This document shows, piece after piece, positions 5,706 through 28,279 of a DNA stretch of 62,818 nt. The position numbers and the translations under genes are program-made. The notes below the pieces were generated by a model, which saw only the letters and a program-made list of their open reading frames with translations, searched no databases and had not been told where the DNA came from. This DNA comes from an uncultured Bacteroidales bacterium (GTDB lineage: Bacteria > Bacteroidota > Bacteroidia > Bacteroidales > P3). How positions within the stretch are numbered: the first letter of the stretch is position 1; each line of letters opens with the position of its first letter. The stretch lies in contig ONBB01000010.1 of NCBI GenBank assembly GCA_900315935.1, forward strand, positions 1-62,818, read 5' to 3'.

Positions 5706-5762
5706 CCATATCCTTCCAGAGCCTTTGTATTCCCCTACCGTTCCCCTACCATTCCCCTACCG
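5706..5762 (+). repeat. Repeat element A, copy 1 (half hairpin plus 11-bp array)
   Basis: CCATATCCTTCCAG, a TTTGTA spacer, then three 11-bp units of the type CCCCTACCGTT. The other arm of the hairpin present in copies 2 and 3 is missing. Confidence 0.85.
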
Positions 5763-5781
5763 TCTCCGTGCCCGCCTAATT

Positions 5782-5826
5782 TACAACCGCACATACGAAA
5801 ACCAGAACAATCGCGTTATTATCTAA
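5782..5826 (+). promoter_or_regulatory. Shared leader upstream of small protein gene
   Basis: Second copy of the leader at 3323-3372, with 16 identical bases (CACATACGAAAACCAG) and then a CGTTA..TCTAA tail. It ends 11 nt before the ATG at 5838. Confidence 0.5.
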
Positions 5827-5837
5827 AACCAAACAAA

Positions 5838-6104
5838 ATGTGCGACCTTAAACAACAGCCCAAGATAACCCAGGACAACGTGCATTTACTGCTGCCCAGC
5901 AAAGTAGCGCAACTGGCCAATCGGCTTTTGCAGAACGGCGAGGCTAAAGATATGGTGTCTGCCATCAATATGGTTTACACCTCATCTGTATACGCGAAGC
6001 TGGAACAAGAAAAGACCAAGTATTGGTGGCTGGGGGTGAACACGCTTTATCAAGAACTAAAAGAACCAATTAATTATCAACCATTTAACACCCATACTTT
6101 ATGA
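5838..6104 (+). CDS. Small hypothetical protein
   Basis: An 88-residue cytoplasmic protein. It is mostly helical, with a C-terminal stretch (TSSVYAKLEQEKTKYWWL) of the kind seen in small Bacteroidales proteins that sit next to toxin-antitoxin or effector genes; the resemblance is from memory and weak. The ATG at 5838 is chosen because the upstream frame runs through the repeat element. Its stop overlaps the start of the lipocalin gene (ATGA), so they are co-translated. Confidence 0.6.
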   Translation: MCDLKQQPKITQDNVHLLLPSKVAQLANRLLQNGEAKDMVSAINMVYTSSVYAKLEQEKTKYWWLGVNTLYQELKEPINYQPFNTHTL

Positions 6105-6607
6105 AGAAGACTATTTTTGCATCGATGATTGCCATCCTGCTTGCCGGATGCGGCAATGCGCAGAAGGTGGACAATACGCCTGTGGCGGCACTTGACCTTC
6201 AGCGCTACCTTGGCGACTGGTACGAGATTGCGCGCTTCGACCATAGCTTTGAGCGCGGGCTGGAATTTTGCAAAGCCAACTATGCACTGCGCGAGGACGG
6301 CAAGATTGCTGTTACGAACACCGGCATCAAGGAGGGCAAGCCGAAGACCTCGAACGGGAAGGCCAAGACCACCGACACCCCCGCCCTGCTGCGCGTGTCC
6401 TTCTTCGGCCCGTTCTACAGCGACTACCGCGTGATGCTGCTCGACACCGACTACCAATGGGCACTCATTGGCAGCGGCAGCGCCAAATACCTCTGGATTC
6501 TCTCTCGCACCCCCGAACTGCCCAAAGAGACCCTCGACGCCATCCTCGCCGAAGCCCGGCGCCGCGGCTACGACACATCCAAACTCATCTGGGTGAAGCA
6601 GAAATAA
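6101..6607 (+). CDS. blc: Outer-membrane lipocalin lipoprotein (Blc family)
   Basis: Bacterial lipocalin, a beta-barrel lipoprotein that binds fatty acids or lysophospholipids at the inner face of the outer membrane. A lipoprotein signal ends in LAGC (Cys17). The lipocalin motif GDWYEIAR is at 38-45, and the second conserved motif, YLWILSRTPEL, is near 126-136. Its length of 168 residues is typical. It is coupled by a 4-nt overlap to the small gene upstream and is followed 3 nt later by the nuclease-like gene. Confidence 0.93.
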   Translation: MKKTIFASMIAILLAGCGNAQKVDNTPVAALDLQRYLGDWYEIARFDHSFERGLEFCKANYALREDGKIAVTNTGIKEGKPKTSNGKAKTTDTPALLRVSFFGPFYSDYRVMLLDTDYQWALIGSGSAKYLWILSRTPELPKETLDAILAEARRRGYDTSKLIWVKQK

Positions 6608-6610
6608 CCT

Positions 6611-7768
6611 ATGCGCATTATTCAAACAAACGGAAACTATTCGTTGTGGGAACGGGAGAAGACGCTGTTTCTCTCTTCAAAGTTGGCACCCGTTGGGACG
6701 TGGGGCAAGGTGTTTGAGTGGGTCGATGGGCTCACTCCTGCCGATACGGTGGTGTGTTTCAACTCGTCGGAATTTGAGAACGAGGTGCTGAAAGCGCTGT
6801 TGGTGAACAGGATTCCCACTGTGCTGGTGGTGATGAACCGCTTCTGCGACACATACAACGTCCAAATAAAATACGCGCTGAAAGAAAACCGCCTGCTTAT
6901 AATTGAGTTGCAACGGGATGAGCCTCACGAAAAAGGCGCTACTCCGAGGCTGCGCAACCAATACGTCATTGGCCAAATGCAGCATATTATCTGCGGCTAT
7001 ATCAACCCTAACGGCAGCATCTTCGGGTTGCTGGCTGGACTCAACAACGTCACCCACCTGCTCAACAAGGAAGACATCCACAAGGCCGCCGAACAGGAAG
7101 CGAAGCCATGCCGCTGGACGGTGGCCGAGGACAAGCGTCTGCTGCGCATGTTCTATGAGGATATGGGCATCCACGCCATACACAAGGCCATCGAGCGCCC
7201 CTACAGCACCATCTACAACCGAGTCAAGGCGTTGACCATGAGCGACGAGCTGTTGAAGGGCCGTGAGTTTGAAGACTATGTGCTGGAACTTCTTGATATT
7301 GCCCACAACGACAGACTCACCCTCAAGGAATGGCGCGGCGACAAATCGCTGCCCGGAGTCTATCCCGAAAGCAACAGCGCCCCGGATTTCGTGTTCGAAT
7401 ACAATGGAATATTGTTTGCCGTGGAGTGCAAATGGCGCAGTCATCTTCCTAAAGACATAGAGAAAGAACTACTTCCTCCTGATAAAACGACATCTTTCCG
7501 ACAATTCTCTTCCAACCGACAAATACCTGTTTATTTGCTCCTTGGCATAGGAGGTCTTCCCAATGCTCCCGACAGCCTATACTTCACATGTCTGAACAAG
7601 AAATTCTCGCCAGAATTGCTGTTCAAAAGCGCTATTCCTCCAAATGAAAGCTTGCTGGAGAAGATTGAAATTCTATTCTCTACTGCAAAGCAAGCCAACC
7701 ACATGAAAAACAGAAAGCGTTGTTCCACAACGCATACAAACCATGGAGCAAAGATGATGATGACCTGA
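6611..7768 (+). CDS. Predicted SLOG-like sensor/HTH/PD-(D/E)XK nuclease
   Basis: A 385-residue multidomain protein. Residues 10-130 resemble the DprA/SLOG-type Rossmann domain found in Bacteroidota (TLFLSSK, DTVVCF). Residues 168-208 form a Myb/HTH-like segment (RWTVAEDKRLL). Residues 215-330 carry a PD-(D/E)XK nuclease core with PDF at 258-260 and ECK at 272-274. The frame breaks near nt 7706, and a second HTH domain of the same type continues in the -1 frame to nt 7878. The architecture suggests a nucleotide-sensing DNA nuclease, perhaps defensive; that is inference. It starts 3 nt after the lipocalin gene. Confidence 0.7.
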   Translation: MRIIQTNGNYSLWEREKTLFLSSKLAPVGTWGKVFEWVDGLTPADTVVCFNSSEFENEVLKALLVNRIPTVLVVMNRFCDTYNVQIKYALKENRLLIIELQRDEPHEKGATPRLRNQYVIGQMQHIICGYINPNGSIFGLLAGLNNVTHLLNKEDIHKAAEQEAKPCRWTVAEDKRLLRMFYEDMGIHAIHKAIERPYSTIYNRVKALTMSDELLKGREFEDYVLELLDIAHNDRLTLKEWRGDKSLPGVYPESNSAPDFVFEYNGILFAVECKWRSHLPKDIEKELLPPDKTTSFRQFSSNRQIPVYLLLGIGGLPNAPDSLYFTCLNKKFSPELLFKSAIPPNESLLEKIEILFSTAKQANHMKNRKRCSTTHTNHGAKMMMT

Positions 7769-7878
7769 TGTCGAATTTATATAAAGCAGGGACGACCGTA
7801 GAGGAATTGATGACATTATTCCAACGGAACCGCGGTGGAATTGAGTCAAGACTGCGCAAATTGGGATTGACCAGATAA
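7711..7878 (+). other. Out-of-frame C-terminal HTH domain of the nuclease protein
   Basis: Reading the -1 frame from nt 7711 gives about 55 residues with a Myb/HTH-like pattern (PWSKDDDDLM, then YKAGTTVEELM and SRLRKLGLTR) and a stop at 7876-7878. This looks like the natural C-terminus of the 6611 gene. The shift lies at G AAA AAC (7705-7711), either a programmed slip site or a 1-nt deletion. Confidence 0.75.
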
Positions 7879-7925
7879 AACCTCTTGGGAAAGCAGTCAT
7901 ACATCGACACACTAAAAACAAGAAT

Positions 7926-7958
7926 GCCGAGATTTACAATGGTCTCGGCTTTCTGTTT
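7926..7958 (+). terminator. Rho-independent terminator
   Basis: The stem GCCGAGA/TCTCGGC is followed by TTTCTGTTTT. It closes the plus-strand accessory run, just before the convergent PorT-like gene. Confidence 0.8.
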
Positions 7959-7973
7959 TATGCTAATAAGGTC

Positions 7974-8672
7974 TTAGGCTTCTATGTTGAGGCCGATGGT
8001 GAATGTGGGGGTACTATGGAAGTAGATGGTGTTGGGGAGGCCGGTGGAACCGTCATCGAACGGAAGGAGGCTGAAGGCAGCCTTCAGTTCCACACCTAGC
8101 TTCAAGTAGCGGGCGTACCAATCCAAACCCAAGCCACATGTATAGCTGAGGTCGTGGGCATTCACCCGCCGGACGCACCCGCCGTCGCTGCCGTTGCGCA
8201 GCGAGACAAAGTCGAAACTATATTTGAGTCCGGAGACAAGGTAGGGCTCAACATCGCCCCAGCTGAAGGGATGGAACTTGACCTCGATGGGCAACTCGCC
8301 GAGGACGCTTTCCACCTTGTAGTCAAAGGATTGCGGAATAACGGATACTCCATCTGGATCCCATTTAGCATTGAGGAGCGCTGTTCCCGGCATTGTGCGA
8401 AGGCTGAAAAAATGCCCCATTCTCAATTCATACATCACAGCGACATCGAATCCCGATGCACAGAACGAGCTGTTGCCCTGCTGCAAGGCATGCACAACGC
8501 CGTCGGCATCGCAGTAGCCGATTTTGACCCTGTTTTCAGTAAATCCCAAATGAAGACCGTAAAACACCTTGCGATTTCCCAATCCTCCGTGTTCTTGTGC
8601 GTGGATCGAGATTCCAAGAAGAGACAACTGCAAAATGCAAAGCATCATTACTTTTTTGATTTGTTTTACCAT
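7974..8672 (-). CDS. porT: PorT-like outer-membrane beta-barrel protein
   Basis: A 232-residue outer-membrane protein with a signal peptide (cleavage after HAQ, about residue 25). The central motifs match the PorT/SprT family of type IX secretion and gliding: YELRMGHFFSLRTMPG, then GELPIEVKFH and PYLVSGLKYSFD. PorT is needed for secretion of C-terminal-domain cargo in Porphyromonas. The gene stands alone on the minus strand and is divergent from yraN. It could instead be a paralogous barrel of the wider PorT family. Confidence 0.7.
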   Translation of the reverse strand: MVKQIKKVMMLCILQLSLLGISIHAQEHGGLGNRKVFYGLHLGFTENRVKIGYCDADGVVHALQQGNSSFCASGFDVAVMYELRMGHFFSLRTMPGTALLNAKWDPDGVSVIPQSFDYKVESVLGELPIEVKFHPFSWGDVEPYLVSGLKYSFDFVSLRNGSDGGCVRRVNAHDLSYTCGLGLDWYARYLKLGVELKAAFSLLPFDDGSTGLPNTIYFHSTPTFTIGLNIEA

Positions 8673-8831
8673 AGTGTAGTGGTTTTAAAGTTAAACATTT
8701 CTAAAGTATGCTTTGCATCATAGGCATCCTGTTTGGTTATACCATTCGTCTTTATCTCGTCCATATTAACGTCATACTGTGGTCATTATTGCGTCTATCC
8801 AAAATATTCCATTCGATTCAGATATTTCTTC

Positions 8832-8839
8832 GTATCTTT
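8832..8839 (+). promoter_or_regulatory. -7 promoter box for yraN
   Basis: TATCTTTG followed by CCGCC, 27 nt before the yraN ATG, fits the Bacteroidota -7 consensus TAnnTTTG. Confidence 0.65.
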
Positions 8840-8866
8840 GCCGCCGAAACAGCACAATATGATACT

Positions 8867-9286
8867 ATGGCATTATTGAAATTCAGGTTTGCCCCTCCGA
8901 AGAAGCGGAGCGTGGAAAGTCGGCAAAAGTCCAAGGAGTTAGGAATTACTGGCGAGCAAATGGCCGCACGCTACCTGGAAGACCAGGGGTATGTCATCCT
9001 GGACCGCAACTACCGCAAGGGGCACAAAGAGGTGGACATCATTGCACTGGACCATGGTACACTGGTCGTTATAGAGGTGAAGACCCGCTCAGATGAAAAA
9101 TTTTTGCCAGCCGAGCATGCTGTCAACCACCAAAAGCGACTGAACATCATCCGCGTCACCAACAACTATGTCCGCCGCTACCATCGTACCGAACCCATAC
9201 GTTTCGACATCATCGCCATCGTCGGCAATGGTATGGATGCTGAAATTCGCCATAGTAAGAACGCCTTCCATGTAATGTGCTTCTAA
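8867..9286 (+). CDS. yraN: YraN/UPF0102 family predicted endonuclease
   Basis: A 139-residue protein of the UPF0102 family with a Holliday-junction-resolvase-like PD-(D/E)XK fold. Visible motifs are LGITGEQMAARYLEDQG, EVDIIALD and VVIEVKTRSDE, which carry the Glu, Asp and Glu-x-Lys metal-site residues. The family role in DNA processing or uptake is not settled. The ATG at 8867 is chosen because it follows the -7 box and gives the usual family length; the frame is open further upstream. AroE follows 55 nt later on the same strand. Confidence 0.9.
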   Translation: MALLKFRFAPPKKRSVESRQKSKELGITGEQMAARYLEDQGYVILDRNYRKGHKEVDIIALDHGTLVVIEVKTRSDEKFLPAEHAVNHQKRLNIIRVTNNYVRRYHRTEPIRFDIIAIVGNGMDAEIRHSKNAFHVMCF

Positions 9287-9341
9287 CATCTTCATCCTTG
9301 AACAAAAAACCTGTTAGGGGAAAGGACTCCTCAATCCTGAA

Positions 9342-10064
9342 ATGAAAAACTACGCATTGATAGGCCAGCGGCTGGGACACTCGTGGTCGCAGCAATGGTT
9401 CGAGGCGCTCTTCCGCCGTCTAGGGCTGAAAGAGTATACCTACCAACTGAAGGAGATGGAAAGCCTCGACAAGTTGCGCGAGTGGGTCAAGGAAGAGCGA
9501 ATTGCGGGCTTCAACGTAACGGTCCCCTACAAGCAGGCAATATTGCCGCTACTAGATAGCCTCGACCCTGTGGCACGAGAGATTGGTGCTGTCAACTGTG
9601 TAACCGTGGAGGGAGACCGCCTTGTCGGCCACAACACCGACGCACCGGCATTCCTCTCCACCATTTCGGACCTACCACTCTCAACAACAGCCATCCTCGG
9701 CACCGGCGGCGCGGCACAGGCTGTGGCCTGGGCGCTGCGGCAGTTGGGCGTGGAACACATCTTCGTCAGCCGACAACCGCAGGGCCATAGCCAGATAGGA
9801 TACACCGATATCTTCCATTTTGACTTCTCCATCCTCATCAATGCCACGCCCGTCGGCATGTACCCCAACGTCGACGCCATCCCGCTTCCCGCGGATTTTC
9901 AATTCTCAATTTCCAATTTCCAATTCGTCTACGACCTCATCTACAACCCCTCCCCCACCCTGCTGCTCCGCCAGGCCGCCGCCTGCGGCATTCCCACCCG
10001 CGATGGCCTAGCGATGCTCCACCGCCAAGCCGAGCTCAGCTGGTGCCTCTGGCAGGAAAAATAA
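9342..10064 (+). CDS. aroE: Shikimate dehydrogenase
   Basis: NADP-dependent reduction of 3-dehydroshikimate to shikimate in aromatic amino acid and chorismate synthesis. The 240-residue protein has GHSWS near the start, the substrate loop GFNVTVPYK at about 55-63, NTDAPAF, and the nucleotide-binding GTGGAAQA at about 121-128, followed by NATPVGMYP. Near residue 186 a 7-bp tandem repeat adds the extra stretch QFSISNFQF before the conserved VYDLIYNP. A bidirectional terminator follows. Confidence 0.95.
   Translation: MKNYALIGQRLGHSWSQQWFEALFRRLGLKEYTYQLKEMESLDKLREWVKEERIAGFNVTVPYKQAILPLLDSLDPVAREIGAVNCVTVEGDRLVGHNTDAPAFLSTISDLPLSTTAILGTGGAAQAVAWALRQLGVEHIFVSRQPQGHSQIGYTDIFHFDFSILINATPVGMYPNVDAIPLPADFQFSISNFQFVYDLIYNPSPTLLLRQAAACGIPTRDGLAMLHRQAELSWCLWQEK
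9896..9923 (+). repeat. Heptamer tandem repeat inside aroE
   Basis: Four 7-bp units of the type TTTCCAA lie inside the coding frame, in a surface-loop region before the conserved VYDLIYNP motif. Confidence 0.85.
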
Positions 10065-10090
10065 AAAGGAAGACAATAGTCTTCCTTTTT
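10063..10090. terminator. Bidirectional terminator between aroE and tRNA-Leu
   Basis: The stem AAAAAGGAAGAC/GTCTTCCTTTTT with an AATA loop gives a T-run on both strands, so it can serve aroE (+) and the tRNA genes (-). Confidence 0.85.
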
Positions 10091-10091
10091 C

Positions 10092-10176
10092 TGGTGCCCG
10101 GAACAGGACTTGAACCTGCACATCTTTCGATACACGCACCTGAAACGTGCGCGTCTACCAATTCCGCCATCCGGGC
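10092..10176 (-). tRNA. tRNA-Leu (anticodon CAG)
   Basis: An 85-nt class II tRNA on the minus strand with acceptor stem GCCCGGA/TTCCGGGC, D-arm GGAATTGGTAGAC, anticodon loop TTCAGGT, a short variable arm, T-loop GGTTCAAGTCC and an encoded CCA. The long variable region and the anticodon give Leu. Confidence 0.93.
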
Positions 10177-10204
10177 ATCTGCTTTTGCAAGCTTTGTTTC
10201 AGGG

Positions 10205-10288
10205 TGCCCAGGACAAGACTTGAACTTGCACGCCTAAATCGGCACTACCCCCTCAAAGTAGCGTGTCTACCAATTCCACCACCTGGGC
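10205..10288 (-). tRNA. tRNA-Leu (anticodon GAG)
   Basis: An 84-nt class II tRNA on the minus strand with acceptor stem GCCCAGG/CCTGGGC, anticodon loop TTGAGGG, T-loop AGTTCAAGTCT, and a variable arm of the Leu type. CCA is not encoded (CCC follows the discriminator base). It lies 28 nt upstream of the first tRNA-Leu and is probably co-transcribed with it. Confidence 0.92.
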
Positions 10289-10332
10289 ATTTGAAGCTTC
10301 TGAAAGCAACCTTTATCTCTTAAAAGCGGGTG

Positions 10333-10363
10333 CAAAAGTACTACGTTTTTTCCAATTGGCAAA
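10333..10363 (-). promoter_or_regulatory. Promoter for the tRNA-Leu pair
   Basis: On the minus strand a -33 TTTG (10363-10360) and a -7 TACTTTTG (10340-10333) are separated by 19 nt, the Bacteroidota spacing, 45 nt ahead of the first tRNA. Confidence 0.75.
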
Positions 10364-10427
10364 ATTTTTTTTTGAAAAAGGCATATTTTTCTGTTTACTA
10401 CACTGATTTTCAGTGGTGATTATTTTT

Positions 10428-10467
10428 GCAAAAAAGAAGCCGGCAACCTTGTAAAATGGCTGCCGGC
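10428..10467 (-). terminator. Terminator of the giant exported protein gene
   Basis: On the minus strand a GCCGGCAGCC/GGTTGCCGGC stem is followed by TTCTTTTTT, 21 nt after the stop codon. Confidence 0.85.
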
Positions 10468-10487
10468 GAAGGTGGAAATCCGAAAAA

Positions 10488-13400
10488 TCACTCCTCGTCC
10501 CCGTTGTTGTATATGACGCGACTGAAGAGGTCGAGCCATCCATTGACACGGCCAGAATCGGATCCAACACGGTACTGGAAAGTGCTGAGGCCCTCTTTCT
10601 CAACCTTGCGTTGCTCAAGCGGTATGGCCTTGATGGCGTCTTCCCAGGTGCCATCGGAACTCTTGAGCACGAGCTGCGACGAACCGAGGTCGTAGTCAAA
10701 GAAGTACCAGTGATCCCTGGCGGCCTGGACGTAGATGACGATGTTCTGGCCAGAACGGGTCTGTTTGATTTGGGCTTTGACGTTCACCTGCACACCGAGT
10801 GCCTTGTCGCCCACGGCCACAAGCCCCACCTTGCCGTCGTAGTAGAAGCCGAAACCGGGCTGGTAGCGCCACTTGATGTTGTCGAACAGCATGGTGGAAA
10901 TCATATCGGCAGGCATCCGGTCAAGATTGCCCGTAGCGCTGTAGGAGGCGTAGGCGGCGGCACCCTTGTCGGCCCCAAGGTGGTGCATCAGGGCGTGGCG
11001 CATCTCAGCGTTGGTGGTACTGCCAAGGGGCGTGAGGCGGAGGTCCTCCTTGAGGTTGTTGTGAAGGGTAGAGACGATGCTGCCAGCCAGCGGGAAAGAA
11101 AATCCAAAGACGGTGGTGAGGTAGTCGTCGTCCGACTGCTGGAGCCCCACCTGGGCGGTGCCGTAGGCGTAGAACGATGCCTGGGTGCGGCGCAAGGTAA
11201 AGTCGACCAGGCCCTCACCTTCGACGATGCAGTCATCGGTGGAGAGCGAGAGGTAGGGTGCCACCACGGCATCGGGGTCGCTGACCTTCTCCTCGGAGGC
11301 AATCATGTACTGCTTGCTGCCGCCCAGGTAGGTGAGCACGCCGTGGGCCGAGAGGAGCTCATTGTCGGCAACCTTCTCGTTGGTGAGGAAGGCGGCGTGG
11401 GGCTTGAGGTCGTTCTTGTCCATGACGATGGAAGCGGTGATGCGGTGGCCTTTCCAGTCGGTGGGCAGCTCGGGCACCACGACGTGGATGTGCTCGGGGT
11501 CGGTGTAGTCAGCATAGGCCAGCAAGCCCAGCTGCTCGGCCGGGATGCAGGGCTGTATGAGGCGCACACCGCCCTCGAAGTGGAGCCACTTGCGGTTGCC
11601 CTCGGCACGCACCTTGCCGGCAAAGCCGAAGGCCGAGCTGAGGGTGAAGTTGGCGCTGTCGCTGATGGTGCCACGCGCCATGGTAACGCCGTTCTGCACA
11701 CTGATGTCGGAGAGGAAGAGGCGCTGTGTCTTCTTGAGGTCGTCGACATAGTCGAGATAGCCCTTGCCGGTGTAGGACGTGGAGCCACTGACCAACAAGT
11801 CGGCGTTGAAGATATGGTGGTAGGCGCTGTCGCGGTTGGCCACAAGCTGGGCACCGTTGAGCACGCGCATGGCGCCGCCCTTGGCCACAAAGACGGTGTC
11901 GGCGGCCGGGGCGATGGCAGCATCGGCCACGTTGATAAGGAATACACCCTGGCTGCTGAGGTCGCCTATGTCATATTTATATATGGAGCGGAGCGAGTGG
12001 TAGGCCAGCTGCTGCTGGGCAGGGTCGGTGCTGACGAAGCGCACGCCCGGCATGTCGCCACCCTTCTTGAGGCGCATGCGGATGTCCATGCCGTCGAGCC
12101 CCTCGGAGGTCTGGCGGGTGGAGTTGAGCAGATCGAGTTCCTTGCGGTCCATCTCCCATGAGAAGCGGTCGGCCCAGGCTTCGTATTTGACCAACTGCAG
12201 CTGTGTGCGCACGGGGCCGGAGGCGGACTGGAGGTCGGCGCGGCGGGTGTCGTAGTTGACGTTGGATGCGATATCGGTGGCGGTGAAAGCCACGGTGTTG
12301 AACTTCTGGCTGCGGAGGGTGAATGTGGATACCTTGGCGCTCATCTCACGCGAGGCGAGGGCGAAGTGGCGCGACTCGAAGGTGCCCTCCTTCACCTGTG
12401 CCGTACCGGCAGCCGAGGCTCCCTGCGGCATCAGCGCCACGCGTCCGCGCAGCGAGGCATCGCCACGATACATGCTGAAGGGACGCCCTTTGTCGAGCGT
12501 GGCCACCGCCATCGAGTCCTGATAAGGCAGCCAGTGCATCGAGGCGCGGCCATTGCGGATGTCGGGGAAACCCTGCTCCTCGCGCACGCTGAAGGTGTCG
12601 GTTACGGCCAGCATCGAGTCGGGCAGGAAGAGGTACTCCTTGGAAGAGGAGGTGGAGGCCAGGTAGGCCAGGTCGCCGTTGCCACGCAGACCGTGGTGGT
12701 CGAGGCTGATCTGCTTGCTGTAGGTGCCCTTGCCGCCATAGGTGGGATAGCCGCCGTCGGGGGTCTTGGTGCGGAAGCCGAGATAGTAGTCGCGCTGCAC
12801 GCGGAGGGGCTCCTGTATGTCGGGGAAGATGCCGGCCGAGGTGAGCACGCCGTTGAAGGCGAGGCTGTCGGTAACGAAGTCAATCATACTGTTGATGGTG
12901 AACGGATGGAGGGTGTAGTAGAAGCGGTCGCGCGTGTACTGCCGCTGCTGTATCTCGGGACGGTCATAGTAGACAAAACTGTTTTGCGTGCTGTTGAAGA
13001 TGGGATATTCCTTGTTTTTGACCAAGCCGCAATGGTTGTCGGGCATGTCGACGGCCAGGGTGCCGACGAGGTTGTGGAGCGGTGTGCGCACCAGCTGCTC
13101 GAACTTCTCGTCCTTGAAGTCGGGCACATAGAACTCGAAGCGCTCGATATTGGGGAGGTTGAAGTTGAACTCCTCGTAGGAGAAGTCGGCATCCTTGACC
13201 GAGAGGATGAAGCGGCCCACGGTGATGCGGCCGGAGAAATGGAGCGAACGGTTCTTGCCGACGGTAACAAGGCGGCCGGTGAGCGAGTCGGGATAGACCA
13301 CCACGGCCTGACTGTCGGAGACGACGAACTGGTTGATGCCGCGGATGTGGAGCTTGCTGTCGGCCAGGTTGAGGCGGGCATTGGTGCCAGTGGTGGCACT

Positions 13401-15008: not shown

Positions 15009-15041
15009 GCGGATATGTTTTATAGCGTTAGTATCAAAGTG

Positions 15042-15049
15042 CAAAGGTA
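15042..15049 (-). promoter_or_regulatory. -7 box for giant protein gene
   Basis: TACCTTTG on the minus strand, followed by CAC, 34 nt ahead of the start codon at 15008. Confidence 0.55.
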
Positions 15050-15131
15050 CGCCTTTTTTGCGACATGGCACCCGCCGGTGCCGACAAGTTATCAAACGCC
15101 CGTTGTTGATTGCCCGGAGGGGTGGGGTTCT

Positions 15132-15250
15132 GTAGGGGAATGGTAGGGGAACGGTAGGGGAATACAAAGGCTCTGGAAGGATATGGAACGATATGGTTCC
15201 ATATCCTTCCAGAGTTGTGGATAATGGTAGGGGCGAATCATTATTCGCCC
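15132..15250 (-). repeat. Repeat element A, copy 2, full composite
   Basis: Read on the minus strand: a GCGAAT palindrome (15250-15231), a short TATCCACAA spacer, then a hairpin with a perfect 19-bp stem (15171-15189 with 15196-15214, loop GATATG), a TTTGTA spacer, and three 11-bp CCCCTACC units. The same order is seen in copy 3 at 22811-22931. Confidence 0.9.
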
Positions 15251-15278
15251 GGGAAAAAGCAGGCTTTGCAGGTGGGTT

Positions 15279-15300
15279 GGGCGAATGATGATTCGCCCCT
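15279..15300. repeat. GCGAAT palindrome
   Basis: GGGCGAATGATGATTCGCCC, a near-perfect palindrome. Related copies lie at 15231-15250, 15652-15679, 15711-15738, 22766-22782 and 22811-22832. Confidence 0.9.
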
Positions 15301-15312
15301 AGGCGGAATGCC

Positions 15313-15369
15313 GAGGACACACGCCCCCGTCCGCCTGCGGCGGCCACCCCCTCTAGCTTAGAGGGGGAG
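15313..15369 (+). repeat. Repeat C, copy 1
   Basis: The block begins GACACACGCCCCCGTCCGCC and ends in a hairpin of CCCCCTCTA and TAGAGGGGG around GCT. It recurs almost unchanged at 15750-15803, and in part, inverted, at about 22740-22760. Confidence 0.85.
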
Positions 15370-15402
15370 CTGGAGAGTCCCCATCGGGGACGACGGATAA
15401 TA

Positions 15403-15526: not shown

Positions 15527-15651
15527 ACGATGCGGTCGTTGGTGTCGCCCCTGCGGGGCTCGGGTTTGTGTGGGTCGCATTCCATGGGCTTGCGCCCACG
15601 GCTACTGTCCGCCGCCTCTACGGGGCTGCGATATGCCCGACCAAAACGCGG

Positions 15652-15738
15652 GTAGGGGCGAATCATTATTCGCCCCTACAATCCCGATGGGGAGGGGAAT
15701 CGTATACTCTGTAGGGGCGAGTGATGATTCGCCCCTAC
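15652..15738. repeat. Pair of 28-bp GTAGGGGCGAAT palindromes
   Basis: Two palindromes at 15652-15679 and 15711-15738, each with arms GTAGGGGCGA and TTCGCCCCTAC. They are the longest versions of the GCGAAT family in the window. Confidence 0.9.
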
Positions 15739-15749
15739 GCGGAATTCCT

Positions 15750-15803: not shown

Positions 15804-15827
15804 GTGAACAGAATACAATTTGCTGAT

Positions 15828-16843: not shown

Positions 16844-16846
16844 CTT

Positions 16847-20307: not shown

Positions 20308-20320
20308 GTCAAAAATCAGG

Positions 20321-20689
20321 TTATTGTTTTTCAGGTTTCGGCTGACGCACAAAATGCGGCATATCGAAGGGGATTTCGATGGAGTACTCGATGAGGCCGC
20401 CGAAGGTGCCGTCCTCTTTCTGCCAGGGGGTCTGGTAGATGAGTTTCTTCACCTTGCTGCCGTCGGCGAGGGTCTTCTCGATGGTGTAGGCGTTGAGTTC
20501 CTGGTGCTCAAGCAGGTGCTTGAGCTTGGTCTTGGCCGGCTCGGGGTGGCAGTCCATGAGATTGTAGCCGAGGATTTTCTTGCCGTGGCTGTTCACGTCG
20601 GCCGAGTGCTGGTTCATGTCAAGGACGTTGCCCTCGGCATCACACACCGTGATGGCGATATTATTGAGACCTTCAAAGTATTGGTCCAT
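20321..20689 (-). CDS. Small PAS-domain protein
   Basis: A 122-residue cytoplasmic protein made of a single PAS fold: NNIAITVCDAEGNVLDMNQH, then ILGYNLMDCHPEPA and GGLIEYSIEIP. PAS domains bind haem, flavin or small ligands. This one has no output domain, so it is either a stand-alone sensor or a partner for another protein. It lies 14 nt upstream of the TonB-receptor gene and is followed in the promoter direction by a hairpin of 7-bp repeats separating it from ptb. Confidence 0.8.
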   Translation of the reverse strand: MDQYFEGLNNIAITVCDAEGNVLDMNQHSADVNSHGKKILGYNLMDCHPEPAKTKLKHLLEHQELNAYTIEKTLADGSKVKKLIYQTPWQKEDGTFGGLIEYSIEIPFDMPHFVRQPKPEKQ

Positions 20690-20695
20690 AAGTTA

Positions 20696-20791
20696 AGGTT
20701 TAGGGTTTAAAGTTTAAAGTTTAGGGTTTAAGGTTTATGGGGGTGGGACACTGTGAATGCGTCAGCACCCATAAACCTTAAACCCTAAACC
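20696..20791. repeat. TTTAGGG heptamer array forming a large inverted repeat
   Basis: Six 7-bp units of GGGTTTA or AAGTTTA type (20696-20737) face an inverted set (about 20767-20791) across a loop of about 27 nt. The arms of about 23 bp can form a long hairpin between ptb and the PAS gene. Confidence 0.85.
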
Positions 20792-20810
20792 GTAGACCAG
20801 TTCAACTGAT

Positions 20811-21722
20811 TTATTTGCACTGCAGGGCGGCGAGGGCGATGCTGTAGAGCTTGGTCTTGGCACTGTCGCCGCGGCTGGTGAGGACGCAGGGCACGCGGGC
20901 ACCCATCACCATGCAGGCCAGTTCGGCGCCGGCCAGCTTGGTGCAAGCCTTGTAGAAGACGTTGCCGCTCTCGATGTTGGGGAAGAGCAGGCAGTCGGCG
21001 TCGCCGGCCACCTCGGAGGTGAGCTTCTTGGTCTGGGCGCTCTCGGCGTCGATGGCGCAGTCGAGGCTCAGCGGGCCGTCCACGATGGCACCGGGAATCT
21101 GGCCGCGCTGGCTCATCATGCCCAGCCATGCAGCCTCGGCGCAGGCGGTCATGCCGACGGAGACCTGCTCGGTGGCGGCGATGATGGCCACCTTGGGTTT
21201 GGGGTTCTCCAGGCTCTTGGCCACGCTGATCTGGAAGTTCATGATGGCCTGCTTCTGCTTGAAGTCGGGGGCGGGGATGATGGCCATGTCGCTGCAGACG
21301 AGCAGTTTGTGGTAGGCGGGCACCTCCATGACGGCCATGTGGGTCAGGATGGGGTTCTTGGCGCCGGCGGGCATCAGGCCCTTCTCCTTGTTGAGGATGG
21401 CGCGCATGTACTTGTCGGTGCTGAGCAGGCCCTTCATCAGGAAGTCGCCCTTGCCCTCGTTGATCAGGGCCACGGCCAAGGCACCGGCCTTGGTGTCGTT
21501 TGCCTCCTGCACGAGCTCGAATTTGCTCACGTCGATGCCTTCCTCTGCGCAGACCTTCTTGATGGTCTCGATGTCGCCCACGAGGGTGGCGTCCACGATA
21601 CCGCGGTCGATGGCAGCGCTGACGGCGCCGATGGTGTGGCTGTCGTTGGCATAGGCAGCGACAAGACGTTTCTTACCTTTCGATTTGACCAGCTCAAGCA
21701 GGTCGTCAAGTTTTGTAACCAT
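20811..21722 (-). CDS. ptb: Phosphate butyryltransferase family protein
   Basis: A 303-residue cytoplasmic enzyme of the phosphate acetyl/butyryltransferase family, which converts acyl-CoA and phosphate to acyl phosphate and CoA. Motifs include FLMKGLLSTDKYMRAILN at about 93-110 and a conserved C-terminal GDADCLLFPNIESGNVFYK. It is usually paired with butyrate kinase for ATP-yielding butyrate formation, but no kinase gene is next to it here. A minus-strand -7 TACTTTTG lies 47 nt upstream. Confidence 0.88.
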   Translation of the reverse strand: MVTKLDDLLELVKSKGKKRLVAAYANDSHTIGAVSAAIDRGIVDATLVGDIETIKKVCAEEGIDVSKFELVQEANDTKAGALAVALINEGKGDFLMKGLLSTDKYMRAILNKEKGLMPAGAKNPILTHMAVMEVPAYHKLLVCSDMAIIPAPDFKQKQAIMNFQISVAKSLENPKPKVAIIAATEQVSVGMTACAEAAWLGMMSQRGQIPGAIVDGPLSLDCAIDAESAQTKKLTSEVAGDADCLLFPNIESGNVFYKACTKLAGAELACMVMGARVPCVLTSRGDSAKTKLYSIALAALQCK

Positions 21723-21769
21723 GTTATTATTAATTAATTGCTGTTAATTATGGATTGTATTGTAAAATG

Positions 21770-21800
21770 CAAAAGTACAACTTTTTTTTCAATTTCCAAC
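21770..21800 (-). promoter_or_regulatory. Promoter for ptb
   Basis: Minus-strand -7 TACTTTTG (21777-21770) with a GTTG at the -33 position, 19-nt spacing. Confidence 0.6.
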
Positions 21801-21913
21801 ATTAATCTTTCGCATCCTGTTTTTCCCTCCCGCCCCCACCTTGTTCTGTCGCTGTGCAATATATGGCGCCACTAGTGCGTTATGCTGTAAAAAACAAATT
21901 AGCCGACCGTATC

Positions 21914-22738
21914 ATGGAACAGAAAATCATCCTCATCACAGGTGCCAGCAGCGGCATCGGCCGCGATGCCGCCCTCGCCCTGGCCGCGCACGGCCACAAG
22001 GTATACGCCGCCGCACGGCGCACCGACCTGATGGAGCCGCTGCGCGCCCACGGCATCGAGGTGCTGCGCATGGACGTAACCGACGGGCAGTCGATGGCCG
22101 ACGGCGTGGAGACCATCCTCAAGGCCGAAGGGCGCATCGATGTCCTGGTCAACAACGCCGGCTACGGCTATTTCGGAGCCGTCGAGACCGTCAGTATGGA
22201 GGAGGCGCGGCGGCAACTGGAAGTCAACGTCTTCGGCCTGGCACGCCTCTGCCAGCTGGTGCTGCCCGCTATGCGACAGCAACGAAGCGGGCGCATCGTC
22301 AACATCTCGTCGGTGGCCGGACGGTCGGTGTTCTACTTCGGCGGCTGGTACCACGTGTCGAAATACTCGGTCGAGGCACTCAGCGACGCCCTCCGCATGG
22401 AGGCCAAGCCGTTCGGCATCGATGTGGCCATGATTGAACCCGGGGCCATCAAGACCGACTGGGGCATCATCGCCGCCGACCACCTGCGCGACTCCGCCGC
22501 CGGCACTGCCTACGAAACCGATGCCACCCGCTGGGCCGCCATACTCCGCAGCATGTACCAAAGTAACCACCTCTCCAGCCCCAGCACGGTTACGCGGGCC
22601 ATCCTACGGGCCGTCGAGAGCCGCCGGCCGAGGGCCCGCTACCGCACCGGACGCCTCTCGGGCACCATCGTATTCTTCCACTGGCTGCTCCCTGCCCGCT
22701 GGTGGGACGCACTTATGCGCCTCGGCGCCAGGGTGTAA
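21914..22738 (+). CDS. Short-chain dehydrogenase/reductase
   Basis: A 274-residue SDR-family oxidoreductase. The nucleotide-binding TGASSGIG is at 9-16, NNAGYGYFG at about 82-90, catalytic Ser in NISSVAGR, and YHVSK (Tyr and Lys of the catalytic set) at about 153-157. The ATG at 21914 is chosen because it puts the Rossmann strand at the usual distance; an upstream ATG at 21854 would add 20 unrelated residues. The substrate cannot be told from sequence. A repeat-rich stretch follows. Confidence 0.9.
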   Translation: MEQKIILITGASSGIGRDAALALAAHGHKVYAAARRTDLMEPLRAHGIEVLRMDVTDGQSMADGVETILKAEGRIDVLVNNAGYGYFGAVETVSMEEARRQLEVNVFGLARLCQLVLPAMRQQRSGRIVNISSVAGRSVFYFGGWYHVSKYSVEALSDALRMEAKPFGIDVAMIEPGAIKTDWGIIAADHLRDSAAGTAYETDATRWAAILRSMYQSNHLSSPSTVTRAILRAVESRRPRARYRTGRLSGTIVFFHWLLPARWWDALMRLGARV

Positions 22739-22810
22739 GACGTGTGTCCCGGCATTCCGCGCAGGAGCGAATCATCATTCGCTACACACACGGAGGGTGC
22801 TCATCACATC

Positions 22811-22931
22811 GGGCGAATAATGATTCGCCCCTACCATTATCCACAACTCTGGAAGGATATGGTCCCATATGGTTCCATATCCTTCCAGTGCCTTTGTATT
22901 CCCCTACCGTTCCCCTACCATTCCCCTACCG
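22811..22931 (+). repeat. Repeat element A, copy 3, full composite
   Basis: GCGAAT palindrome (22811-22832), TATCCACAA spacer, hairpin with 14-bp arms (22849-22862 with 22875-22888), TTTGTA spacer, then three 11-bp CCCCTACC units ending at 22931. Same order as copy 2. A weaker GCGAAT palindrome lies just before it (22766-22782). Confidence 0.9.
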
Positions 22932-22957
22932 TGTGCCAGTGAATTTTCTTTTCACGA

Positions 22958-22980
22958 TTTGATTTTTTTTCGTATATTTG
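22958..22980 (+). promoter_or_regulatory. Promoter region of enolase
   Basis: TATATTTG (22973-22980) fits the -7 box, 38 nt ahead of the eno ATG. A TTTG lies upstream, but with shorter spacing than usual. Confidence 0.6.
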
Positions 22981-23012
22981 CACGTTCATTCAATACTAAC
23001 AAACAAACATAA

Positions 23013-24311
<1,299 letters not shown>

Positions 24312-24330
24312 CAATCCGCGCCAAACGACA

Positions 24331-24360
24331 GAAGGCCCGGGCTCACGCCCGGGCCTTCTC
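24331..24360 (+). terminator. Terminator of enolase
   Basis: A perfect 12-bp stem (GAAGGCCCGGGC with GCCCGGGCCTTC) and a TCAC loop, followed by TCTATTTC. Confidence 0.85.
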
Positions 24361-24371
24361 TATTTCTATTA

Positions 24372-25289
24372 TTATGCCGTCGCCCCCACAATGATGTCGG
24401 CCTTGTCGGCCACGGGCAACAGTCCGTCTATCCAGCATATCTCCACCCCGTTGCGCTCCATGCGGCGGAACCACGTCATCTGCCGCTTGGCGAAACGGCG
24501 TATGTCGGTGAAGAGGTCGCGGAAAAGCTCCTCCTGCGTGCACTGGCCCAGCAGGTGGCGCGTTACGTGGCGGTACTCGAGGCCGTAGCGCATCAGGCGC
24601 TCGGGGCTGATGCCCTCGTCCAGCAGGCGCTGCACCTCCAGGGTCATCCCCTCCTCCATTCGCATACGGAGGCGGCGCTCGATGCGGTCGATTACCTCCT
24701 GCCTCGGCAGCAAAAGGCCGAAGACGCGGTGGCGCATGGCGGGCAGATGGGTGTAGGCTTCGGGATGCCGGCAGGCAAACTCCTGTATCTCGAGGGCGCG
24801 CACCAGGCGGTCGCGGGTCTCGGTATCGGTATGGTTGTGCAGTTTCACCATCGAGGCCAGGCGCGCGGTAAGCTCCTCGTCGCTGTAGGGTTCCAGCGAG
24901 CGACGGTAGTCGGGGTTGACGGGTGCGTCGGAGAGCTGGTATTCACGCAGCACGGCATCGATGTAAAGCCCCGTGCCGCCGCAAAGGATGGGCTGGCGGC
25001 CACGCTCCACAATGCCATTGAAGGCAGGTATAAAATCGTTGAGGAAACGGTAGGCGTTGTACTCCTCGCCAGGCTGACAGATATCGATGAGGTGGTAAGG
25101 TATGTCTACACCGTGGAGGTGGTAATCGGCGAGGTCCTTGCCTGTGCCGATGTCCATCCCACGGAACACCTGACGGGAGTCGGCGCTAATCACCTCCCCA
25201 CCGAGCCGATAGGCCACCTCGGCCGCCAGGGCGGTCTTGCCGGTGGCGGTGGGACCGAGGATGGTGATGAGCAGGGGCTGGCTATTCAT
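24372..25289 (-). CDS. miaA: tRNA dimethylallyltransferase
   Basis: Adds a dimethylallyl group to A37 of tRNAs that read UNN codons. The 305-residue protein has the P-loop GPTATGKTALA at about 12-22, SADSRQVFRGMDIGTGK at about 35-51, and the C-terminal tRNA-binding section with KRQMTWFRR. Its start overlaps the end of the OmpA-like gene by 8 nt, so the two genes are likely on one transcript. Confidence 0.97.
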   Translation of the reverse strand: MNSQPLLITILGPTATGKTALAAEVAYRLGGEVISADSRQVFRGMDIGTGKDLADYHLHGVDIPYHLIDICQPGEEYNAYRFLNDFIPAFNGIVERGRQPILCGGTGLYIDAVLREYQLSDAPVNPDYRRSLEPYSDEELTARLASMVKLHNHTDTETRDRLVRALEIQEFACRHPEAYTHLPAMRHRVFGLLLPRQEVIDRIERRLRMRMEEGMTLEVQRLLDEGISPERLMRYGLEYRHVTRHLLGQCTQEELFRDLFTDIRRFAKRQMTWFRRMERNGVEICWIDGLLPVADKADIIVGATA

Positions 25290-28041
25290 CGAGGAAGATG
25301 AGGCGCGAGCGCTGCTTGTCGAACTCGTAGTTGCCGAACTGCTGGAGGCCGGTGCGGTTGATAATGAACTTGTAGTCGATACCCTTCACCACGACCACCT
25401 CGACATTGGTGCGGCGCTGCTCGCCGATTTTCATATCCTTGAAGACGATGGTGGCGCGGTCGAGGATATTGCCTTCGGGGTCGAAGGAGAGGTCGCGCAG
25501 GGGGAAGTCCTCCTTGGAGATGCGCTGCTGGTAGAGCAGACTCATGGCCTCCTCCCACGAAATGGCGATGGGTTCGGCGTAGCGTTCGTCGATAAGCATG
25601 GGAATCTGGAAGCCGTTGGCGATGCAGGTCATCTCGCCACGGGTGGCGTTGATCATGGTGACGTGGATGGTACTCTCGTCGTGGACAATGGTGGGCATTA
25701 TATCCTCCTGATCCTCGTTGGCGTCACGGTTGACGAGGTTGATGACACGGCCGGCGCTGTCAAGCTTGACAGTGGGGTCGGTAGAGGTCATATTATCAAC
25801 CAAACTGCGCGGCACATAGTCCTCGCGCAGCACGAGGAACTCGATGCGACGGTTGAGCGAGTGGGCTGCCTGCTGGTGGTCTCCCTTGAGGGTGGCGATG
25901 TAGTCGCACTCCATCACCGAGCCGGCGGTGAAGACATAACGCTTGCCGTTGTAGTTGACCACGGCGTCCTCGTCGAGGGTGCGCGGCACACGCTCGGCAT
26001 AGCCTTTGGCCACCAGCCGCTGGCGCTCGATACCACGGGAGACGAGGTAGTCGACCACGCTCTGGGCGCGGCGCTGCGAGAGGGTGTCGTTGGTGAGGCC
26101 GACATAGGGCTGGCAGTCGGTATGGGCACGAATCTCAACCACGAGGTTGGGGTTGTTCTCCATGATGATGTAGAGGTCCATGAGCGAATCCATGAACTCG
26201 CTGAGGAGGTCGGTCTTGCCAAGGTCGAAGCGAATCTCGGGCAGCACGATGGGGCGTCGGGGGACGGGCTCCATGCGGAAGTCGCGCACGAGGGTCTTAT
26301 TGGTATTGTAGCCGCGGGTGCTCTCGCTGCCCTCGAGGCTGTAGTAGCTCTGTTTGGAGAGGTATAGCTTGTATACCACGTCGCGACGGATAAGGGTGGA
26401 GTCGAACTTGTAGAAGCCCTTCTTGTCGGTAGTGGTCTCGGCGGTGGTGCCGTCGGAGCCGACAAGGCGGATGCGTACATCCTTCATGAGCTGCATCGAC
26501 TTCTCGTCGCGGACGGTGCCCTGGATGGCGTAGTTGAGGCCGGCGAGCTCGAAGTAGAAGATATCGTCGTTGATGGGGGCGGAGTTGATGGTGGAGCGGT
26601 TCTCGTTGCGCACGGCGCGGTTGTGGGGATCGACGTAGGGGCGGTTGGAGGAGAAGTAGCCGCGCTCGAGGATGTTCCGCTTGGCGCCGTCGGGGTAGAA
26701 GACGATGGAGAGTTCGTCATAGGAGGAGTTGATGGGGATGCCGAGGTTCTGCGGGGTGGACCACTTGCCGTTGGGGTTGAGGGTGGCGTGGAAGAGGTCC
26801 TGTCCGCCGACGCCGGGATGGCCGTCGGAGGAGAAGTAGAGGAGCGAGTCGGTGCGCAGCAGGGGGAAGATTTCCTTACCGGGGGTGTTGATGATGGAGG
26901 AGAGGTTCTGCGGACGGCCGAAGTCGTCGGCAGTGGACTTGCGGGTGGCGCGCCAGAGGTCGTAGCCGCCGAAGCCGCCGGGGAGGTCGGAGGAGAAGTA
27001 GAGCGTCAGGCCGTCGCTGCTGATGGCGGGGTAGAGGTAGCTGTAGGCGGTGTCGCCGAGGTGGATATAGGTGGCTTCGGACCATTCGCCGGGGGCAGGG
27101 GCCTCGGGCGTAACCTCGGGCTCCTCGTCAGCGGCCTCCTGGCCTTTTTTCTTGGTATTCTTCTTTTTGGCAGGGGTTTTCTTCTTGGCGGTGGCCTTCT
27201 TTTTCTTCTTGTCGAGAGTCTCGGGGGTGCGGCTCGAGGTGTAGATGCGGCAGTGTACGGTCTCGTTGGCGCGGATGTCGCAGCGGGTGAAGTAGACGGT
27301 GTTGCCGTCGGGCGAGAAGGAGGGCTCACCCTCGTTGACGGCGGTATTTATCTTGCCGCTTTTGTCCCAGGGTTCGGGTGCCGACGACCACTGGCCGTTG
27401 CGGTCCTGGTAGACAAAGTATATTTCGGAGAAAGCCTGGTCGGTCCAGGGGTCTTTGTCATTGCCCTCGCCCTCGGCGAAGCGGGCCGAGGTGAAGAGCA
27501 CCTTGTTGGTGTCGGAGCCGAGGAAGCGGGGAGCGAAATCGTTGTAGTCGGAGCACCAGCCGTCCATGCGCGAGATGGTATGGCGTGTGCGGTTGTTGTA
27601 GAGCTGGTTGGCGAAGATGAGCGACTGCTTACGCTTGCGGGCGTAGGAGTCGGAGGGGTCGAGTTCGAGGTACTTGTCGTAGTACTGGTCGGCCTCGTCG
27701 AACTGTTCCTCGAAGCGCAGCATCTCGGCCAGGTTGAAGTAGAGCTTGCGTTCCTGCTTGTAGTATTCCTCGTCGGCCAGGCGCTTGTAGATGCGGATGG
27801 CGCGGCCGTAGTTGTAGGTGAGGCGGTAGCACTCGCCCATCTGGAAGTAGATGCGGTTCTTCTCGGCCTTGTTGCCCTTGATACGCTCGTAGGCCGACTC
27901 GTACTCCCTGACGGCTTCGATGAAGCGGTTCTGGTCGAAGAGGTCATCGGCTTTGGCGGCGAGACTCTTTTGAGCCTGCGCCCCGGTGGCGACAAACAGC
28001 GCTGCCACAAGCAGCAGAAAGCCTTTTTTGAGTGTTTTCAT
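25282..28041 (-). CDS. PorE-like OmpA/PD40/TPR outer-membrane protein
   Basis: A 919-residue envelope protein. It has a signal peptide to about residue 24 (no lipobox), TPR helices (26-150), a PD40 beta-propeller (165-490), a carboxypeptidase-regulatory-like domain (about 520-600) and an OmpA peptidoglycan-binding domain (about 625-775, with VVEIRAHTDCQPYVG). This matches the order in PorE of the type IX secretion system. A Lys-rich insert (278-300) interrupts the propeller. The last 139 residues are extra and look like a retropepsin-type aspartic protease fold in which the DTG motif is replaced by IDE (817-819). Confidence 0.8.
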   Translation of the reverse strand: MKTLKKGFLLLVAALFVATGAQAQKSLAAKADDLFDQNRFIEAVREYESAYERIKGNKAEKNRIYFQMGECYRLTYNYGRAIRIYKRLADEEYYKQERKLYFNLAEMLRFEEQFDEADQYYDKYLELDPSDSYARKRKQSLIFANQLYNNRTRHTISRMDGWCSDYNDFAPRFLGSDTNKVLFTSARFAEGEGNDKDPWTDQAFSEIYFVYQDRNGQWSSAPEPWDKSGKINTAVNEGEPSFSPDGNTVYFTRCDIRANETVHCRIYTSSRTPETLDKKKKKATAKKKTPAKKKNTKKKGQEAADEEPEVTPEAPAPGEWSEATYIHLGDTAYSYLYPAISSDGLTLYFSSDLPGGFGGYDLWRATRKSTADDFGRPQNLSSIINTPGKEIFPLLRTDSLLYFSSDGHPGVGGQDLFHATLNPNGKWSTPQNLGIPINSSYDELSIVFYPDGAKRNILERGYFSSNRPYVDPHNRAVRNENRSTINSAPINDDIFYFELAGLNYAIQGTVRDEKSMQLMKDVRIRLVGSDGTTAETTTDKKGFYKFDSTLIRRDVVYKLYLSKQSYYSLEGSESTRGYNTNKTLVRDFRMEPVPRRPIVLPEIRFDLGKTDLLSEFMDSLMDLYIIMENNPNLVVEIRAHTDCQPYVGLTNDTLSQRRAQSVVDYLVSRGIERQRLVAKGYAERVPRTLDEDAVVNYNGKRYVFTAGSVMECDYIATLKGDHQQAAHSLNRRIEFLVLREDYVPRSLVDNMTSTDPTVKLDSAGRVINLVNRDANEDQEDIMPTIVHDESTIHVTMINATRGEMTCIANGFQIPMLIDERYAEPIAISWEEAMSLLYQQRISKEDFPLRDLSFDPEGNILDRATIVFKDMKIGEQRRTNVEVVVVKGIDYKFIINRTGLQQFGNYEFDKQRSRLIFLDE

Positions 28042-28195
28042 ATATATAGTCCTATTTCTTCAAGTTAATATATCTATATGTTTATCAGCACGTTGCACAG
28101 CCTGTAGAGGGCTGTTGGACGTGATGGTTCAAAATGCTAAATTACAACTTTTTCCGAAACTGGCAAAATTTTTCTTCCACCCCCCTGCCCTTTCA

Positions 28196-28279
28196 TAGGG
28201 AACGGTAGGGGAATGGTAGGGGAACGGTAGGGGAATACAAAGGCACTGGAAGGATATGGAAGCTTATGGTACCATATCG
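28196..28279 (-). repeat. Repeat element A, copy 4
   Basis: Four 11-bp CCCCTACC units (minus strand), a TTTGTA spacer, and a decayed hairpin in which only about 7 bp still pair (GATATGG with CCATATC). The intergenic stretch 28042-28331 holds nothing else that I can identify. Confidence 0.85.

Follow-up and report, generated by a model that had tools for sequence, protein, structure and literature searches.

What is the repeat that recurs in the intergenic gaps of an uncultured Bacteroidales bacterium, with short units spaced by about one turn of the DNA helix? The question is raised by a stretch of 62,818 nucleotides (contig ONBB01000010.1 of assembly GCA_900315935.1; hereafter the window), in which four copies of a composite element carry CCCCTACCRTT units at 11-bp spacing. 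A sequence-only reading had described them as hairpin, spacer and array, and had suggested a protein that reads one DNA face, a miniature mobile element, or a chromosome-organising or replication-related site. Searching the whole genome (G000; 2.29 Mb in 31 unordered contigs, of which the window is contig C6) with the 28-nt pattern ATATCCTTCCAGNGCCTTTGTATTCCCC and up to 3 mismatches, we found 90 places (48+42 by strand), 58 of them exact over all 28 nt; the same pattern read backwards, our control, gave 0 places. Likewise, TCCCCTACCRTTCCCCTACC has 74+56 exact matches in G000, far above chance, versus 0+0 for the reversed pattern. The repeat is real and genome-wide, not limited to one contig. 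Because a few further arrays carry variant left modules or linkers (L003, L139 and L140), 90 is a lower bound.

All 90 copies were extracted with their flanks and set in register. Their consensus (GTACCATAAGCTTCC ATATCCTTCCAG TGCCTTTGTATT CCCCTACCGTT CCCCTACCATT CCCCTACCG) reveals a common plan: a left module of ~27 bp, a GCC..GTATT linker, and then usually 3-4 CCCCTACCRTT units at 11 bp (3 units in 51 copies, 4 in 36, and 2, 5 and 6 in one copy each). By eye, the left module itself is built of 10-bp units (CCATAAGCTT, CCATATCCTT and CCATAGCGGT), so that a spacing of roughly one turn runs across most of the ~70-bp element, and its left boundary in the aligned copies is sharp. Across the 90 copies the element strand contains C at 0.41 and G at 0.10, and the consensus RNA is without structure (-1.0 kcal/mol, z 0.22). 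A CTGAAAACAAG-like motif, perhaps an older module, lies at a fixed distance of ~54 bp to the left of a minority of copies, 7 of the 90 reaching a score of at least 10 of 12 at that position.

The four window copies (copies 1 to 4, first noted at 5706, 15132, 22849 and 28196; Table 1) are present where the sequence-only reading placed them. Exact 11-bp spacing holds in each, with CCCCTACC starting at 5732/5743/5754 (+), 15142/15153 (-), 22901/22912/22923 (+) and 28204/28215/28226 (-) and one further, degenerate unit each in copies 2 and 4; the TTTGTATT spacer and the left module are likewise common to all four. The remaining parts of that description are incidental to the element. Copy 2 does form the reported 19-bp perfect stem (-35 kcal/mol, z -10.9) and copy 3 folds strongly (z -5.0), but copy 1 has no hairpin (z +0.6), copy 4 only a weak one (z -1.5), and the hairpin arm (14 nt, up to 2 mismatches) is found in 4 of the 90 copies, too few for a general feature. 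The GCGAAT palindrome and the TATCCACAA linker each stand beside two window copies but recur in just 4 and 3 of 90 copies, respectively (up to 1 mismatch for the linker); the palindrome, a repeat in its own right, recurs elsewhere in the window (15274, 15651 and 15710). The intergenic placement holds for 86 of the 90 copies, small end overlaps with predicted genes being tolerated, and fails for 4. Copy 1, one of these 4, lies within a predicted 65-aa frame (5632-5826) that scores at the caller's threshold and is probably false.

A close relative, G001, has its own version of the element. The pattern GGGTAATAATGGGAAANGGCC (up to 3 mismatches) marks 80 places there, 79 of which were recovered in extracted stretches (one being a palindrome already counted from the opposite strand), and their consensus, AAAGTATCCATATTTACCCATCGATGGGTAATAATGGGAAAAGGCCTAACTATTCCCCTAGAGAACCCCTACCGTTCCCCTACCG, follows the same plan in largely different sequence. 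Within each of the two species, the whole element is alike, unit order included. The G000 left module is found at 5 places in G001 and at none in G002, G004, G010 and G036. At least one flank matches a G001 stretch for 52 of the 90 G000 elements (both flanks for 28); the other 38 have no match in the extracted stretches. At 34 of these 52 loci, a fraction that is an upper bound because the G001 stretches were mostly chosen for holding an element, G001 carries a full element of its own type at the same place and in the same orientation, and at one more the syntenic gap holds an array only. The rest comprise 6 G000-type elements (for one of them, L057, the matching G001 locus is also that of L038, and orthology is uncertain), 2 elements in opposite orientation, and 9 loci with none in the G001 gap, although one of these (L118) does show a G000-type element when aligned. 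In the alignments, which cover 23 of the 28 two-flank loci (5 were skipped for length), conserved flanks, mostly 76-93% identical, enclose an unrelated left module.

Of the six G000-type copies in G001, four adjoin a flank that is at least 95% identical (the other two stand at 93.6% and 84.2%), which suggests recent transfer. A clean rule of this kind is countered by L122 and L138, which carry the G001 type next to flanks of 97-98% identity. The left module of G004 is G001-like, and for each of the seven window segments compared G000 has its closer match in G001 rather than in G004, so the G000 version would be the derived one; four gene starts (read as aspS, serC, ansA and purA) are, however, closer to G000 in G004 than in G001. 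Upstream of the new left module, 3 of 90 copies retain a G001-like one at p<=0.005, versus 0 of 90 in a reversed control (10 versus 8 at p<=0.05). Two such decayed modules (L060 and L093) are convincing and also point to the G000 version as derived, which we treat as a lead only.

Across the genus, we searched 120 genomes with CCTA-N6/7-CCTA-N6/7-CCTA, again with the reversed pattern as control. Matches, counted as overlapping triplets so that a count can stem from just a few long arrays (as in G030), occur in 89 of the 120, many at control level. By hand count 34 genomes are clearly enriched (at least 10 matches and at least 5x the reversed control), with G010, G092, G071, G024 and G095 left out for their high controls despite many matches. 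When the gaps were widened to N{2,12} in four genomes, 811 of 955 matches fell into 4 of the 121 combinations, those at 10/11 bp (226/252 in G022, 208/239 in G070, 209/240 in G009 and 168/224 in G004; the wide pattern reversed gave 41, 37, 33 and 25, respectively). The units differ by species (CCCCTACCRTT, CCTAGGCAAT, CCTAAGCATAT, CCTACCAACTC, CCTAGGTGAAA), and the phase is constant. Some genomes (G070, G022 and G117) contain two-armed dyad arrays around CCATGG and the like. Order-wide, 189 of 247 genomes have no match, including two of another genus in the family; G364 (37 vs 2), G324 (32 vs 5), G209 (76 vs 6) and G288 (19 vs 0) rise above control, as does G248 (28 vs 2, the matches listed at one locus), and G056 does not (88 vs 105). 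The search was built on the CCTA core and misses units that lack it. Around the centre of L354 lies a long array of ~11-bp units (GGGAGTCAAAA and GGAGAGCGAAG types), mostly without this core.

The copies are also oriented relative to genes, which we called with a simple codon-bias gene caller. In G000, 46 copies are in sense and 11 in antisense tandem contexts (p 3e-6), 19 have divergent neighbours and 12 convergent ones, and for 2 no downstream gene was called. G001 shows the same excess (36 sense to 10 antisense, p 1.6e-4; 12 divergent, 12 convergent, 9 with a missing neighbour; one palindrome counted twice). TAnnTTTG is the Bacteroidetes -7 promoter box; it lies between the array and the downstream sense gene in 44 of 65 copies, versus 4.0 expected from base shuffling, and in 32 of those 44 it is 33-83 bp from the array. 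By a crude test, a predicted intrinsic terminator separates the upstream gene from the element in 14 of 58 G000 copies (0.8 expected) and in 4 of 48 in G001. Many copies, though not all, are thus located at the borders of transcription units.

We propose, with a probability of roughly 40%, that the element is a dispersed operator array for a putative protein that assembles head-to-tail, one protomer per turn, and co-evolves with its sites. The central fact is that the phase is kept while the sequence changes, which a protein reading one face would explain; the sequence-only reading had drawn this natural inference from the phasing in the window, and the congeners, with other units, extend it. 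Each 10-11-bp unit would offer one site on the same helix face, and the putative DNA-binding protein would polymerise along ~seven turns in the full element, or, in some other species, as two arms around a dyad. The array would mark gaps between genes, often at the above distance upstream of a -7 box, from where it might influence transcription or chromosome structure. Protein and sites would change together, giving each species its own unit, and the copies within a genome would be kept alike by selection and by copying between loci. More tentatively, and less likely than not, this could be a genus-wide system, in which an abundant, fast-evolving protein polymerises on phased arrays at about a hundred gaps and its species-specific code is replaced on the spot at dozens of loci from one close relative to the next.

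Several observations weigh against an operator array. We identified no binding protein for the arrays. The copies are more nearly identical (58 of 90 exact over 28 nt) than a protein site usually needs, which suggests that copying contributes, though one genome per species does not tell it apart from selection. A -7 box is found to the left of the element as well, on the other strand, in 19 of the 32 copies with an upstream antisense gene, so the boxes may merely reflect promoters in gaps. A promoter role cannot be general, since the downstream gene is on the other strand in 23 of 90 copies (12 convergent, 11 antisense tandem). Eight of the 90 are squeezed between co-directional genes that leave them less than 60 bp on either side, and 12 dyad arrays read in G070, G022, G009 and G004 lie in 5 convergent, 4 divergent and 3 tandem gaps. 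Finally, conservation of place is seen with G001, but beyond G001 there is no clear sign of it: in four species, 5 of 29 upstream regions hold an array versus 1 of 29 for the control pattern (regions taken from loci without a matched G001 element; one further start was not found).

The main rival is a non-autonomous mobile repeat, akin to a miniature inverted-repeat transposable element (MITE) or to hairpin-forming doublets of repetitive extragenic palindromes (REPs), known as REPINs (cf. BrickBuilt), that spreads by copying and needs no host function. New versions would land on or convert old copies, leaving relatives with shared places and unshared sequence. We consider this possible, if on the unlikely side. 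It would account for the near-identity of copies, their sharp left boundary, the 3-4 units in 87 of 90, the uniformity of the whole element within each species and the relics of G001-like modules upstream of new ones. Multiple dispersed non-coding copies, as expected of a MITE, are present (90 places, 86 outside predicted genes), and no array precedes glyA or lepA in G001, G004, G002 and G036. G000 moreover has four Y1-transposase matches, 3 of them over the cut-off, and one Y1 gene (in L077) lies ~2.2 kb from an element on contig C8. Yet the ~3-kb loci of these four matches contain no full element (insertion-sequence ends were not searched systematically), and we rejected mobilisation by Y1 or REP-associated tyrosine transposases (RAYTs) on this ground; a lone CCATATCCTTCC falls within the L077 match, and around the Y1 genes of L077 and L078 stand repeats of other kinds. 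The 90 aligned copies lack terminal inverted repeats by eye, an inverted left arm being present in just 4, and neither a target duplication nor a clean empty site was found, the relatives' loci that lack an element differing too much between genes to show a junction. Phasing that persists across differing units, and orientation relative to genes, also speak against a mobile repeat.

Three further explanations each capture part of the pattern. If the C-rich strand were transcribed, it could act as an unstructured, rut-like RNA signal for Rho, with YC dinucleotides each 10-11 nt; rut descriptors count YC dimers 9-13 nt apart (in the cited part of PMC9160355), and the 41% C and 10% G, the 46:11 sense bias and the lack of RNA structure fit the composition and orientation seen in this species. 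This account is nonetheless improbable, for it does not fit the relatives' dyad arrays with a G-rich arm or their CCTAGG units, which are not C-rich and G-poor, and 44 of the 65 copies with a downstream sense gene precede the promoter box, while 14 of 58 (just 4 of 48 in G001) already follow a predicted terminator. A bending or wrapping site, such as a strong DNA gyrase site like that of the bacterial interspersed mosaic element BIME-2, would make phase matter and sequence not. The 10-11-bp phase, the intergenic place and the dyad forms would agree with it, as would the 10.75-bp periodicity flanking the Escherichia coli gyrase motif and the attraction of gyrase by BIME-2 (as reported in the cited part of PMC6379681). 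In a wedge curvature model, 6 of 11 units reach at least the 0.92 percentile of their own permutations, but the other 5, both left-module units among them, range from 0.09 to 0.79, and GC clustering in 25 hand-picked units does not exceed that of permuted ones (mean percentile 0.47, p 0.54). A protein that reads one face fits better than bending alone, to which we give little credence. Ordinary, functionless minisatellites maintained by replication slippage would explain tandem arrays whose unit number varies from 2 to 6; they leave the ~90 dispersed like copies, the 10/11-bp periods and the places shared with G001 unexplained, and are the least probable of all.

Other origins found no support. 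The proposed replication-related site is not supported, as the TTATCCACA-like linker, which resembles a DnaA box, occurs in just 3 of 90 copies. Replication polarity, judged within the 31 unordered contigs, was set aside as weak (orientation bias at contig level p 0.025; the direction is the same in 40 of 66 adjacent pairs). The stretch 22800-22935, around copy 3, has no match in plasmid or phage records; a viral origin was rejected because the 20-mer found exactly in two viral contigs lies in apparent coding sequence, a chance match as judged by eye. Rfam at its gathering threshold returns nothing at the elements.

Other repeats accompany the element (Table 1). The array at 43818..43865 has different units, so G000 holds more than one array type; another is located at G000:C4:14542. 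The five palindromes of the GGGGCGAAT..ATTCGCCC kind, those adjoining copies 2 and 3 included, resemble GTAG-tagged REPs, and GTAG does precede some of them; the cited part of PMC3733652 places GTAG repeats in other phyla and reports just CGTC repeats for Bacteroidetes. Two matches to the Rfam family Acido-Lenti-1 (RF01687; 15376-15423 and 15444-15489, - strand) fall in a tandem repeat of GCCGTGGGCGTGAGCCCACGG. Elsewhere, the Y1 (RAYT-like) genes of L077 and L078 each lie between their own inverted repeats (GCAGGGAAT..ATTCCCTG and GCCCCGAAGGGGC). In L079 (751-2082), a Y1 domain is found inside a reading frame, presumably of a SpoU-like RNA methyltransferase; stretches of the peptide GTQASRLH recur there, which would fit an in-frame entry of a REP-type element into the gene. 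Copy 3 ends 86 bp before the start codon of the enolase gene.

Table 1. Element copies and neighbouring features in the window (positions in the 62,818-nt stretch)
Feature	Position	Strand	Description
Element copy 1	5693..5763	+	left module (GTACCATAAGCGTCCATATCCTTCCAG), linker and array of three CCCCTACC units, 11-bp spacing; without hairpin
Element copy 2	15130..15214	-	hairpin-form left module (arms 15171-15192, 15193-15214), linker, two CCCCTACC units and a degenerate third (CCCCTACAG)
Element copy 3	22849..22932	+	hairpin-form left module, linker, three CCCCTACC units
Element copy 4	28196..28272	-	left module, linker, three CCCCTACC units and one partial unit
GGTAGGGGCGAATCATTATTCGCCC palindrome adjoining copy 2	15226..15250	.	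separate repeat, outside the general element
GGGGCGAAT..ATTCGCCC palindrome	15274..15298		
GGGGCGAAT..ATTCGCCC palindrome	15651..15675		
GGGGCGAAT..ATTCGCCC palindrome	15710..15734		
GGGCGAATAATGATTCGCCC palindrome adjoining copy 3	22811..22830	.	same separate repeat as beside copy 2
Enolase gene, downstream of copy 3	23019..24311	+	G001 orthologue also has an upstream element, with a different left module
Second 11-bp array	43818..43865	+	different units (CCTATATTTACCCTAGAATTACCCTATAGTTACCCTAGAATATCCCTA, CCTAGAATTAC type); upstream of a gene with penicillin-binding-protein domains

As a kind of element, dispersed intergenic repeats are known; this one differs in its helical phasing, in units that change across the genus and in the other version that a close relative has at shared places. 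If these are protein sites, they would exemplify, in bacteria, a DNA code and its reader co-evolving very fast and throughout the genome, and would give a handle on the organisation of intergenic gaps in a genus of which at least 120 species have been sampled. If they are mobile, a repeat that overwrites its earlier copies where they stand would represent an unusual form of concerted evolution. In both cases, pairs of close relatives offer natural experiments.

In an open-access literature search we found no paper on such phased arrays; the comparisons that follow take each system as described in the cited part of its source. The nearest published repeat found is BrickBuilt of Porphyromonas gingivalis, a minisatellite-MITE with a 23-nt unit, 19 copies and small inverted-repeat ends (PMC4596501). 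Both are dispersed, transposase-free tandem repeats from the same phylum with a leader and a tail, always intergenic in BrickBuilt; here, by contrast, the units are of 10/11 bp, the copies number ~90, no inverted ends were seen, and a close relative has another version at shared places. REP, BIME and REPIN sequences with their RAYTs (PMC3733652) resemble the element in its ~90 short, species-specific intergenic copies and some palindromic forms, but it is without their GTAG-tagged short hairpin core (arm in 4 of 90), and no association with Y1 genes was found, the nearest element lying ~2.2 kb from the L077 gene. The DNA gyrase motif and BIME-2 (PMC6379681) share the periodicity of about one turn at intergenic repeat sites; there the periodicity is one of GC content, which the units here do not show. 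Rho utilisation sites (PMC9160355) are similarly C-rich and G-poor with YC spacing of 9-13 nt, whereas the elements here are dispersed, near-identical and in many cases upstream of promoter boxes. Closest in binding mode may be two regulators that act on direct repeats at about one helical turn, an arrangement also found here. BldC binds variable numbers of short (9-bp), AT-rich direct repeats at regulated promoters in a head-to-tail array, with protected tracts one turn apart (PMC5859096); the units here are GC-rich and their protein is putative. CarH binds three to four tandem 11-bp direct repeats with a TnnACA core on one DNA face at carotenoid promoters (PMC9304148), whereas the sites here number ~90 and have another core. 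By analogy, BldC and CarH would thus serve as precedents for the binding mode of the putative protein, and not as members of its family.

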